Positions 6,646-59,994 of a DNA stretch of 64,000 bases are shown here, piece by piece; the stretch's first letter is position 1, and every line of letters starts with the position of its first letter. The position numbers and the translations under genes were made by a program. Origin of the DNA: Pyrinomonadaceae bacterium (lineage in GTDB: Bacteria; Acidobacteriota; Blastocatellia; Pyrinomonadales; Pyrinomonadaceae); the NCBI GenBank assembly GCA_026129865.1, contig JAHCHG010000006.1:186001-250000 (forward strand). Reading direction: 5' to 3'. The notes under the pieces were generated by a model, which saw nothing but the letters and a program-made list of their open reading frames with translations, ran no database searches and was not told the origin of the DNA.

Positions 6646-7098
6646 TCAATCCCATACATACCGCTCGTCAAAATCGATCGAATATTTTGTCAAAAATGAT
6701 CGATATTCTTCCTTGAAGTCTTTATCTTTATGATGTTCTTTCTGGCTGGCAATATAGTTTTCTACAACCTCGATCTCGGTTTGCCCGACCGAGAATGCGC
6801 CGTATCCCCGCTGCCAGTAAAAATTTTTGGGATTAATGTTTTGAGATTTGATCCAGCGGGAACTCGCGCGCTTGATGTCGCCGATAAGCTCCGGAATATC
6901 GATCTTCTTCGGCAGAGAGATCAACAGGTGAATATGATCCGCTGCTCCGTTCGCAATAATAAGATGAGCGTTGTTGTTTGCGGCGACTCCATGAATGTAC
7001 CCAAAAAGACCTTTTTCAATTTCAGGAGCGATCAGTTTTGCACGGTTTTTTGTAGAGAAAACAATATGGACAAAAATCCTGGAAATTGATTGAGGCAT
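6646..7098 (-). CDS. IS200-like/REP-associated HUH tyrosine transposase
   Basis: 150 residues, typical of the single-domain Y1 transposases (PF01797). The metal-binding HUH motif is D-H-I-H-L-L-I (H55, H57). The nucleophile is Y115 in 'VVENYIASQKEHH' with Q119, and the conserved W-Q-R-G-Y-G-A-F-S-V segment lies at 95-104. Such enzymes nick single-stranded hairpin DNA. No TnpB-like gene is adjacent. The 5' side of the gene opens directly into about 1 kb of palindromic repeats (7159-8125), which is the arrangement of RAYT genes with their REP sequences. A plain IS200-type element is the alternative. The gene appears intact, with the catalytic residues in place. Confidence 0.9.
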   Translation of the reverse strand: MPQSISRIFVHIVFSTKNRAKLIAPEIEKGLFGYIHGVAANNNAHLIIANGAADHIHLLISLPKKIDIPELIGDIKRASSRWIKSQNINPKNFYWQRGYGAFSVGQTEIEVVENYIASQKEHHKDKDFKEEYRSFLTKYSIDFDERYVWD

Positions 7099-7268
7099 AA
7101 GCGTTGAAAGTTAATGAGATCTAATTTTTCAAAAGTTCTTATGAAATATTCAATTAAATTTGCGGACGATGTTCGGCAAGTATCGAAGCTCAAAATTTGT
7201 CCGCGAACTGGCTCGATTGAAGTTCGTTAACACAATGCATCAAGTCGCCAAAGGCGACAAACATATAG

Positions 7269-7856
7269 TTTTGCGAACAATGTTTGGCATCTATCGAAGT
7301 ACGAATATGTCCGCAAATGGGTTCGAAAGAGATCCGTTAACACAATGCATCGAGTCGCCAAAGGCGACAAACATATTAGCCTAGCGAGAATCGCTAGGTA
7401 AAGTGAAAACAAGCCGCCGTCGCTGTAAGCGACGAACAATGCAAATGTTTTGTTGGTCGCCTTCAGCGACCGGATTCTGATGATCGCCGGACCTATGGTT
7501 TCGGCGAAACGCCTTCACCATAGGCTAATATGTGTGTCGCCTTTGGCGACCGGATTGTGACGTTCGTCTGCTGAGTCTCAAGCGTAGACAATAATATAGT
7601 TTTGCGGACACTGTTCGGCATGTATCGAAGTTCAAAATATGTCCGCGAACGGGTTTGATCGAATTCCGTTAATTCAATGCATTATGTCGCCAAAGGCGAC
7701 AAACATATTAGCCTAGCGAGAATCGCTAGGTAATGAGAAAAAAAGCTGCCGTCGCTGAAAGCGACGAACAATGTAAATGTTTTGTTGGTCGCCTTCAGCG
7801 ACCGGATCTTAATGATTGTCGGACTTATGGTTTCGGCGAAACGCCTTCACCATAGG
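7269..7856. repeat. 332-bp higher-order direct repeat
   Basis: The ordered block of dyads (GTCGCC, CCTAGCGA, GTCGCT, GGTCGC, CCTATGG types) occurs twice with a constant offset of 332 bases: 7354/7686, 7380/7712, 7419/7751, 7455/7787 and 7492/7824. A shorter 110-bp unit containing 'tttgcggac...gttcggca...tatcgaag...gttaa...caatgcat' is seen three times, starting near 7159, 7269 and 7600. The array therefore grew by duplication of whole blocks, not by independent insertion of single palindromes. Confidence 0.85.
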
Positions 7857-8125
7857 CTAATATGTTTGTCGCTTTCAGCGACGGGACGGTAAATGATCGT
7901 GGGACCTATGGTTCCGACGAAACGCCTGCACCATAGGCTAGTATGCGTGTCGCTTTCAGCGACTGGGAATTAAATGATCGTCGAACCTATGGTTCCGGCG
8001 AAACACCTTCACCATAGGCTAGTATGCGTGTCGCTTTCAGCGACTGGGAATTAATTGATCGTCGAACCTATGGTTCCGGCGAAACGCCTTCACCATAGGC
8101 TAGGATGTGTGTCGCTTTCAGCGAC
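7824..8125. repeat. 81-bp tandem repeat, about four copies
   Basis: The CCTATGG...CCATAGG hairpin recurs at 7824, 7905, 7986 and 8067, and the GTCGCTTTCAGCGAC hairpin at 7868, 7949, 8030 and 8111: both have an exact period of 81. The units are nearly identical, so this expansion is recent. Each unit would give two stem-loops if transcribed. Confidence 0.9.
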
Positions 8126-8328
8126 AACATCAATTATTCGATCATTCCCGGCGATGAATCGGCGGGCTATTGACTTTTGTCGCTGCGGGGCATTTTGAAA
8201 TGGCTCGGTTTTCAGTTGGAAAATTCATTGGATATAGCGTGCAATCCGTGTATTGCCGAACTAAATCTGTAATTTCTGCGTTGTAATTGCAGATACACAT
8301 ACAAATCGATTAAAAAAATATGGAAATT

Positions 8329-33069: not shown

Positions 33070-33087
33070 CTTAGCGCGTTGAGAGTA

Positions 33088-33279
33088 ACGGCTTCAGCCG
33101 CGAGTACAGAGTAACGGCTTCAGCCGTGAGCACAGAGTAACGGCTTCAGCCGTGAGCACAAAGTAACGGCTTTAGCCGTGAACGGATTCGAACGGATTTG
33201 CCGTTCGAGTAGATGTTCGAATAGCAGCGATTCTCACGCCTAAAGGCGTAACTCTGAACAGAGTAACGGCTTTAGCCGT
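33088..33279. repeat. REP-like palindromes ACGGCTTCAGCCGT
   Basis: Palindromic 14-mers ACGGCTTCAGCCG(T/C) or ACGGCTTTAGCCGT occur at 33088, 33114, 33140 and 33166 with an exact period of 26, and again at 33266. A related ACGCCTAAAGGCGT is at 33236, and ACGGATTTGCCGT lies between. The T/C variation falls in the loop. The cluster separates btuD from the receptor gene. The other part of 33070-33425 holds A/T-rich spacer and a heptamer array. Confidence 0.88.
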
Positions 33280-37201: not shown

Positions 37202-37900
37202 GGAGCGTGCCGACGCTCGCAGTCGCGCGGACTCTTGAGACCGCGAATGGTCCGCACGCTTGCTAGCGCGCGCGTTTCTGCCCTAATCACAAACGGCAGA
37301 AACGCGACCGCTAGGGAGCGTGCCGACGCTCGCAGTCGCGTGGACTCTTGAGACCGCGAATGCTCCGCACGCTTGCTGGTGCGCGCGTTTCTGCCCTAAT
37401 CGGAAAGGGTAGAAACACGACCGCCAAGGAGCGCAAGGGATGGGAGGCATTACACTCGCCTTCTTCGATCGAAAAATAGTTGATACAATCGAACCGACGC
37501 GAGGATTTGGGAGAGACTGGTTGCTGTGAGAATGGAAGTTTGAGGCGTCTGGTGTTCACTTTATGTTCTTTGAGTTCGTTTGAGAGTAATAATGCGGGAA
37601 TTTAGCACGCTCCCTAGCGGTCGTGTTTCTGCCCTTTTTGTCGCGCCGCAATTCATTTAGAGTAATGTGAGAAGGAGATCTACAAAAGCTCTGCATCTTT
37701 TGCGTTTAAGGTGAATTTAGTACGCGAAGAAAGGCACGCTCCCTAGCGGTGGCGTTTCTGCCCTTTTTGTCGCGCCGCAGGTCATTTAGAGTAAGGGGAG
37801 AAGGAGATCTACAAAAGCTCTGCATCTTTTGCGTTTAAGGTGATTTTAGTACGCGAAGAAAGGCACGCTCCCTAGCGGTCGCGTTTCTGCCCTTTTGGGT
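37202..37900. repeat. Intergenic repeat cluster with GGCACGCTCCC/GGGAGCGTGCC elements
   Basis: A 30-base element (GGCACGCTCCCTAGCGG followed by TCGCGTTTCTGCCC) and its reverse complement recur through the gap: forward at 37605, 37733 and 37862 (the last two 129 bases apart as part of a repeated unit that includes 'agatctacaaaagctctgc'), reverse near 37295 and a decayed copy near 37408. The left part is a 113-bp direct repeat ('ggagcgtgccgacgctcgc' at 37202 and 37315). No gene is visible in 37196-37925. The same element family reappears at 44352-44691. Confidence 0.88.
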
Positions 37901-44351: not shown

Positions 44352-44691
44352 GGCAGAAACGCGACCGCCAGGGAGCGTGCTGTTGATTCTTTTTGCTATC
44401 GTTTCTTGAGTTTAGAGAGATCAAGGGTGCGGACGGTTCTCGGGGGCAATTATCTATTGCGGTGCGAGAGTTTTGGCACGCTCCCTGGCGGTCGCGTTTC
44501 AGCCCTTAATTCTTCGAATTTTCGACGTCAAGAAAGGCAGAAACGCGACCGCTAGGGAGCGTGCTGTTGATTCTTATTACGATCGTTTCTTGAGTTTAGA
44601 GAGATGCAAGAGTCGCGGACGTTCTTATGCGGCAATTATCTTTTGCGATGCGAGAGTTTTGGCACGCTCCCTAACGGTCGCGTCTCAGCCC
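44352..44691. repeat. Second cluster of GGCACGCTCCC/GGGAGCGTGC elements
   Basis: Two units about 184 bases apart. Each opens with GGCAGAAACGCGACCGC...GGGAGCGTGC (44352, 44536) and closes with GGCACGCTCCC...GGTCGCGT-TC-AGCCC (44475, 44661). The arms are reverse complements about 30 bases long and the interior is conserved ('gttgattcttnttncnatcgtttcttgagtttagagagat'). It is the same element as in 37202-37900. The 44294-44786 gap has no gene. Confidence 0.88.
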
Positions 44692-44786
44692 TTTATTCTT
44701 CGAACTTCCGCATATAAACAGATTTAATAAATTACCAACAAAAATCTAAACAATGCGCATTGCTGAACAGGGCTTAGTTTTCGCAT

Positions 44787-59715: not shown

Positions 59716-59722
59716 ATATTTA

Positions 59723-59991
59723 GTCTCGTGAGTCTAGTGAGTCTAGTGAGTCTAGCGAGTCGAGCGAGTCTACTGAGTCTCACGAGTCTCTGTTTCAAAT
59801 CGCGTCCAATGTAAACAATTCGGAGAACTTTGAATTCTCACTGAATTATGGAATCTTCAAACTCGGAGCTTCGCAATTGGTAAATCAAAAACTCGTACAA
59901 CCTAAATGACTCGAAAAACTCGAATGACTCACTAGACTCGTTAGACTCGCCAGACTCACTAGACTCGCTAGACTCACCAGACTCGTAAGAC
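59723..59991. repeat. Two inverted nonamer tandem arrays
   Basis: 59723-59785 holds seven nonamers of consensus GTCTAGTGA; 59911-59991 holds nine of TCACTAGAC, its exact reverse complement, ending 3 bases before the prfA stop. About 125 bases of A/T-rich spacer lie between. Units vary at positions 5-8. The arrays could fold into one giant hairpin. This is all that the 279-base gap contains. Confidence 0.92.
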
Positions 59992-59994
59992 TCA

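Follow-up and report, generated by a model that had tools for sequence, protein, structure and literature searches.

A cluster of probable REPIN-like six-hairpin mini-elements beside a subclass 1.2 Y1 transposase gene in a Pyrinomonadaceae genome

The window analyzed here, a stretch of 64,000 nucleotides from a Pyrinomonadaceae genome, carries a tnpA gene at positions 6646 to 7098 on the minus strand and an array of palindromes from position 7159 to 8125. The first-pass annotation had recognized an intact HUH tyrosine transposase, and this is borne out. The uninterrupted reading frame encodes a 150-amino-acid Y1 HUH-tyrosine transposase, as judged by its Pfam match (Y1_Tnp, PF01797, E=6.5e-29), its motifs, and a structure model. 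The motifs are DHIH, WQ, and Y115-x3-Q-x2-HH (YIASQKEHH). Residues H55, H57, Y115, Q119, and H123 are unchanged in an alignment of 34 homologues, nearly all of the 115 homologues fetched carry Y-x3-Q-x2-HH, and the closest named homologues are from Pyrinomonadaceae.

Subclass 1.2 of the TnpA-Y1 proteins, as delineated by Quentin et al. 2018 (PMC6006769), is characterized by DH[IV]H, WQ, and Y-x3-Q-x2-HH motifs and a length of about 148 amino acids. Judged by its motifs, the window protein fits this subclass, and its length and the low copy number and divergence of tnpA within one genome agree with the subclass as well. Six copies of tnpA are present in the genome, and the other five are 32-63% identical to the window copy. 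With the best paralogue at 63% identity, near-identical copies of the type seen for insertion sequences are absent. Three Y1 paralogues in this genome (L003, L005, and L006) are accompanied by distinct dyad families, for example one in which GTCGCGATAGCGAC alternates with CCGTGGGTTTTAACCCACGG.

The first-pass annotation also described the locus as REP/RAYT-like. A classical system of that kind would pair a class 2 TnpA-REP enzyme with dyads that are GTAG REPs arranged in BIMEs, and the behavior of the locus does resemble this, in that tnpA is low-copy and divergent and inverted palindrome pairs are dispersed between genes. The protein itself points elsewhere. It scores 28.6 bits with the NCBIfam REP_Tyr_transpos (RAYT) model, which is below the cut-off of 80, and 81.2 bits with the NCBIfam IS200/IS605 model, which is above the cut-off of 55. 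It has Y-x3-Q-x2-HH rather than the Y-x3-NP of class 2. An AlphaFold2 model (pLDDT 89) has the HUH-tyrosine TnpA fold of the IS200/IS605 family and finds ISDra2 TnpA as its closest structure (VIA Z 14.1, 108 residues, rmsd 2.5). The TnpA proteins of ISDra2 and IS608 match at Z values of about 13-14, and the E. coli RAYT (4er8) follows at 10.8. Furthermore, the palindromes described below have three hairpins per half, not one, and no GTAG foot was found at their hairpins, where the feet instead read (T/A)AGC ahead of B and AAC following C; the GT[AG]G foot that defines REPs is thus missing. We therefore regard a classical REP/RAYT assignment as very unlikely. The earlier description holds as far as a transposase-linked palindrome system is concerned, and it fails on membership in the REP/RAYT group.

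The array contains 12 GTCGC-N5-GCGAC dyads at 7244-8125, compared with 0.16 expected in the 64-kb window, and none of 100 shuffled sequences reaches this number. Its direct repeats measure 110, 332, and 81 bp, the organization that had been noted at first sight. Two 110-bp units on the plus strand (7159..7378; direct repeat family D3) each consist of an 85-nt filler and an A dyad (7244-7258 and 7354-7368), and the second of these dyads opens a first element. This element (7354..7550, plus strand) comprises six hairpins, which are A (7354-7368), B (7380-7398), C (7418-7434), C' (7455-7471), B' (7492-7524), and A' (7536-7550). A third 110-bp unit (7601..7710, plus strand; families D2 and D3) forms, together with the second element, the second copy of the 332-bp repeat. 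The second element (7686..7882, plus strand) again has hairpins A (7686-7700), B (7712-7730), C (7750-7766), C' (7787-7803), B' (7824-7856), and A' (7868-7882). Both elements are 197 bp long, are 91.9% identical, and are laid out as A-B-C, a linker of 20 nt, and C'-B'-A', such that one 332-bp repeat amounts to one mini-element plus its 110-bp flank. When folded as single-stranded DNA, the first element reaches -61.4 kcal/mol (z -10.7).

Three tandem 81-bp B'-A' units on the minus strand complete the array (7883..8125; A' at 7949-7963, 8030-8044, and 8111-8125), and these were also reported by TRF with a period of 81 and 89% matches. In these tandem units, the A hairpin of one unit doubles as the C hairpin of the next. 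Near-identical units and recent growth had been proposed for the array, and this is true only of the last two 81-bp units, which are 95% identical. Identities among the other 81-bp units begin at 80%, the two elements agree at 92%, and the 85-nt filler units agree at 55-82%. No Rfam family matches the array in a search of the whole window, in which the only match is a cobalamin riboswitch (RF00174, 29921-30118, plus strand, 35.8 bits).

Other repeats in the window were also recorded. Tandem repeats at 37202-37433, 37605-37896, and 44352-44704 share a GGCAGAAACGCGACCGC...GGGAGCGTGC-like sequence, and a similar string in L203 of another genome hints at a possible further dispersed repeat family. 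At 33082-33181, AGAGTAACGGCTTCAGCCGTGAGCAC, a 26-bp unit that contains a palindrome, is present in 3.8 copies. At 59722-59994 there are tandem repeats of 9, 18, and 27 bp (AGTCTAGTG-like) in two blocks that lie about 110 bp apart and are seemingly mutually inverted.

The unit of the array is a three-hairpin module, A-B-C, of about 80-97 nt. In relatives, the A hairpin has a 6-bp stem and a 3-nt loop and is followed by an AT-rich spacer of about 12 nt that ends in AGC where B starts. The B hairpin has a stem of 7-8 bp and a loop that is either short or holds an inner stem, and about 20 nt separate it from C, whose stem is 7 bp. In genome G032, C is followed by AACA in 14 of 17 modules and by AAC in 16 of 17. 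The view that A, B, and C are three unrelated dyads was dropped: in the tandem units a single hairpin serves as A of one unit and as C of its neighbor, so A and C are one hairpin type.

A covariance model of the module, designated R1, was used for searches of genomes and individual loci. Within the window it matches the first element at 7354-7434 (plus strand, 84.1 bits) and 7455-7550 (minus strand, 58.6 bits), and the second at 7686-7766 (plus strand, 86.1 bits) and 7787-7882 (minus strand, 55.3 bits). The match at 7244-7325 is weak, and those over the 81-bp units lie at window positions 7867-7963, 7948-8044, 8029-8125, and 8110-8192. In relatives, tnpA stands between inverted copies of the module, in the order A-B-C-tnpA-C'-B'-A'. 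Between two facing modules there is either tnpA or else a linker about 16-40 nt long. Because the tnpA genes of relatives are flanked by the same modules, the array elements look like derivatives that lack tnpA. In the window elements B is short in the left half and long in the right half, as is also the case in the tnpA-bearing element at C4 (L002), which suggests that the mini-elements may descend from an element of this kind that lost its tnpA.

The window tnpA gene differs from its relatives in that the R1 search finds no hairpin module directly at either of its ends. Counting outward from its start codon, the first A dyad is reached after about 150 nt and the first full element after about 250 nt. 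As a result, the gene's own element looks worn, and this copy may not be mobile as a unit. In close relatives at L034, L036, L065, L066, L071, L074, L075, and L083, the hydrophobic residue of the HUH motif is G, S, or D, giving variants NHGH, NHSH, DHSH, DHGH, and NHDH across the L034-L083 set, and modules are nonetheless present.

Base changes within the stems had been read as compensated and as a sign of selection for pairing, and this pattern extends more widely among relatives. In an alignment of 20 modules, 15 of 21 pairs have changed on both sides, and the covariation score is 0.56, compared with 0.165 for shuffled alignments and at most 0.061 for slid ones. The modules of alignment A1 were selected for good stems, so its figure of 99.8% paired is biased, although the kinds of compensation are unbiased. 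The distance between A stems tracks the distance between TnpA proteins (Mantel r 0.52; 0/2000 permutations). In the aligned sequences, change in the stems is compensatory and in line with the phylogeny of the transposase.

If the array belongs to a mobile system, then copies should exist elsewhere in the genome, and R1 finds them. There are 26 modules in the genome at E <=0.015, and these include eight facing pairs whose members are 18-24 nt apart; two of the pairs lie in the window and six elsewhere. Besides the tandem units, modules occur close together in no other orientation. The six dispersed elements are intergenic, with no ORF of at least 120 aa overlapping them. In G032, four of six elements tested partly overlap a predicted ORF, which is not necessarily a gene. 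A BLAST search of the genome with the array returned nothing beyond the C4 paralogue and a single weak site, and the dispersed pairs emerge only with the covariance model. The plain GTCGC-N5-GCGAC pattern occurs at 33 places in the genome, compared with 10 for a reversed control, and those outside of tnpA loci look like mostly chance occurrences.

The dispersed pairs bear directly on whether the locus is simply a typical insertion sequence of the IS200/IS605 type, at which slippage copied the end hairpins locally and no mini-elements are mobilized in trans. Slippage fits the tandem 81-bp units well, and the NCBIfam score noted above favors the same family. Such an element would not account for six facing pairs without tnpA elsewhere in the genome, nor for the dispersed pairs in other genomes, and the low identity among tnpA copies (32-63%) also argues against it, as does the IS608 layout, which differs from inverted three-hairpin ends. 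This explanation is therefore unlikely.

Modules are found in 46 of 60 genomes of the family, with a maximum of 72, and the numbers of tnpA genes and modules per genome rise together (Spearman 0.80 across the 60 genomes, uncorrected for phylogeny). Genomes without a close tnpA mostly have zero modules, and those with modules despite no detected tnpA are G078 (13), G030 (7), and G066 (5). The expectation, set out at the start as a potential refutation, that dyads accompany the transposase in relatives is thereby upheld, since module and tnpA numbers go together from genome to genome. In a second lineage, the G050 tnpA locus yields about 190-200 matches each in G050 and G054, mostly to its dyad array, and both genomes carry tnpA. 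G046, from the same genus, lacks tnpA, and among the matches listed it has none to the G050 array. At the level of gene order, an element at one gene junction of G032 is absent from the corresponding junction of G076, a difference that is consistent with gain or loss. Base-level empty sites were not found in sister genomes, where identity is about 70-84% and the spacers do not align.

Some elements occur within larger structures. Loci L184, L185, and L186 (G032, contigs C3, C12, and C1) are three near-identical larger cassettes that open with A-B-C and have a common insert that is not tnpA. At L154, L156, L159, and L168 (G000, contigs C19, C21, C21, and C16), six-hairpin elements are nested in the terminal inverted repeats of another MITE (GAGGCTGTCTGAAAAGTCCTTAAA).

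The hairpins are not a peculiarity of this family. At 72 of 115 subclass 1.2 loci (a set that counts at least three loci twice because one genome is in two collections), a hairpin of one flank is copied in the other, compared with 0 of 218 pairs of distal control windows. The best cross-flank match is inverted at 60 loci and direct at 28, and the direct matches are due in part to tandem arrays; these arrays also dominate whole-flank comparisons, in which direct and inverted similarity is mixed. Among 67 loci outside of Acidobacteriota, an inward-facing module lies immediately upstream at 38, immediately downstream at 39, and on both sides at 29. Hosts in which this one covariance model finds modules include Acidobacteriota, Bacteroidota, Planctomycetota, Calditrichota, Desulfobacteraceae, and Thiotrichales. 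Modules occur in 14 of 15 genomes from other phyla, with up to 122 in one Thiotrichales genome and 80 in one Desulfobacteraceae genome. The facing pairs there have gaps of 20-40 nt, and the pairs checked show close spacing in no other orientation.

These searches also speak to whether the dyads might be cis-regulatory RNA structures, such as terminators, attenuators, or processing sites, that are independent of the transposase. They are stable intergenic hairpins, and transcription of some is probable, with possible effects on neighboring genes. In other phyla, R1 yields 117 matches in tnpA-proximal sequence (46.9 kb) and 20 in more distant sequence (419.6 kb), an enrichment of about 50-fold, whereas it finds no match at 27 Y1 loci outside of subclass 1.2. 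Given this enrichment, the fixed geometry of the facing pairs, the tracking of TnpA phylogeny by the stems, and the lack of an Rfam match, a regulatory origin is extremely improbable. Mobilization by another transposase is also hard to sustain. Four sites in the genome (C21:81255, C21:182113, C19:143084, and C16:213131) do have common outer repeats and lie inside the terminal repeats (GAGGCTGTCTGAAAAGT...) of a different MITE. The outer repeats are missing at the window array, at C12 and C1, and in G032, and the modules flank tnpA itself in many phyla, which makes this alternative highly unlikely.

Thus, we conclude that the array is most probably a cluster of non-autonomous, REPIN/MITE-like mini-elements of a subclass 1.2 Y1 transposase. 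The TnpA proteins of IS608 and ISDra2 bind hairpins that lie subterminally in the single-stranded ends, and a guide tetranucleotide sets the cut sites (PMC6006769); E. coli TnpA-REP processes its cognate single-stranded REPs (PMC8266576). By analogy with the TnpA proteins of IS608 and ISDra2, it is reasonable to infer that TnpA folds onto the A, B, and C hairpins on single-stranded DNA, that its tyrosine would cut at or near the outer A hairpins, and that the element would be moved as single-stranded DNA. Elements bearing tnpA would be moved in cis, and the mini-elements, perhaps arising by loss of tnpA from A-B-C-tnpA-C'-B'-A', would be moved in trans. For the tandem growth of the array, duplication and slippage are the simpler explanation: the 332-bp repeat of the window would be a duplicated mini-element plus flank, and the 81-bp repeats may have formed later, by slippage between A hairpins or by unequal exchange at them, and are probably not products of transposition.

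More broadly, we lean toward the view that subclass 1.2 Y1 transposases constitute a widespread mobile system of their own, parallel to yet separate from REP/RAYT. Each enzyme would recognize both the A/C and the B type of hairpin within inverted modules of three hairpins, and would spread six-hairpin mini-elements, to more than 100 modules per genome at most, in many phyla without a known REP family. Subclass 1.2 was published as REP-free, which left its role open, and it can now be assigned a cognate repeat that is conserved and shows strong compensatory change. The subclass might thereby represent a second, independent case of co-evolution between a domesticated Y1 enzyme and a palindrome, and the module offers a defined substrate for work in vitro. 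The covariance model provides an annotation route for a repeat class for which no earlier description was found in the open literature searched; most subscription papers lay outside of that search, and one may exist elsewhere.

Among published repeats, the CGTC REPs (PMC3733652) were considered since C reads CGTCGC, and they were set aside because in those repeats CGTC forms an unpaired foot, the stems are 8-9 bp long, and a transposase is lacking, while in the present hairpins CGTC is part of the stem. MITEs of Thiomargarita, which have a 19-bp inverted repeat, were also rejected, as their layout differs in the part of the source available (PMC4853749). TIRtrons and TIRYTs (Di Nocera et al. 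2013, PMC3733652) are closer: their Y1 gene is bounded by long inverted repeats, of which some are double palindromes and some are dispersed, and they are known in Acidobacteria. However, TIRYTs are mostly of subclass 2.1, and many of their repeats carry a GGGGWSAS motif. PATEs likewise are MITE-like derivatives of an IS200/IS605 Y1 element that lack tnpA; they are known from archaea, some cyanobacteria, and Salmonella, and the accessible portion of that report mentions no six-hairpin layout (PMC4853749).

IS608 and ISDra2 share with the present system the protein fold, the HUH and tyrosine residues, and hairpins at both ends. The ends of IS608-type elements have small subterminal hairpins, whereas an inverted three-hairpin module forms each end here and the copies in one genome have diverged from each other. 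Subclass 1.2 was described as having no REP, as generally lacking terminal secondary structures, and as residing mostly in Cyanobacteria and Bacteroidetes (PMC6006769). The key motifs including WQ, the length, and the low-copy, divergent genes agree with that description, but the genes here are flanked by modules and occur in Acidobacteriota and several other phyla. The flanking hairpins at 72 of 115 loci correct the published description of the subclass, not membership in it.

The strongest resemblance in behavior is to REPINs and RAYTs (PMC3116915), which likewise feature facing intergenic palindrome pairs, a low-copy Y1 transposase presumed to move them in trans, and tandem clusters that include flanks and adjoin the transposase. 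In Pseudomonas, tandem clusters of REPINs plus flanking sequence have been described, some adjoining RAYTs (Bertels and Rainey 2011, PMC3116915), and flanks with multiple dyads are common in subclass 1.2. The first-pass annotation had regarded the tandem, multi-dyad organization as unusual, which it is not. The mini-elements share with REPINs a structure of two inverted palindromic units dispersed between genes. RAYTs differ in being class 2 enzymes (Y-x3-NP) whose repeats have one GTAG-footed hairpin per half, whereas the system here pairs subclass 1.2 with three hairpins of two types. Because the behavior is REP/RAYT-like, yet the transposase subclass and the repeat are different, we consider this a REPIN-like system and not a member of the REP/RAYT group.
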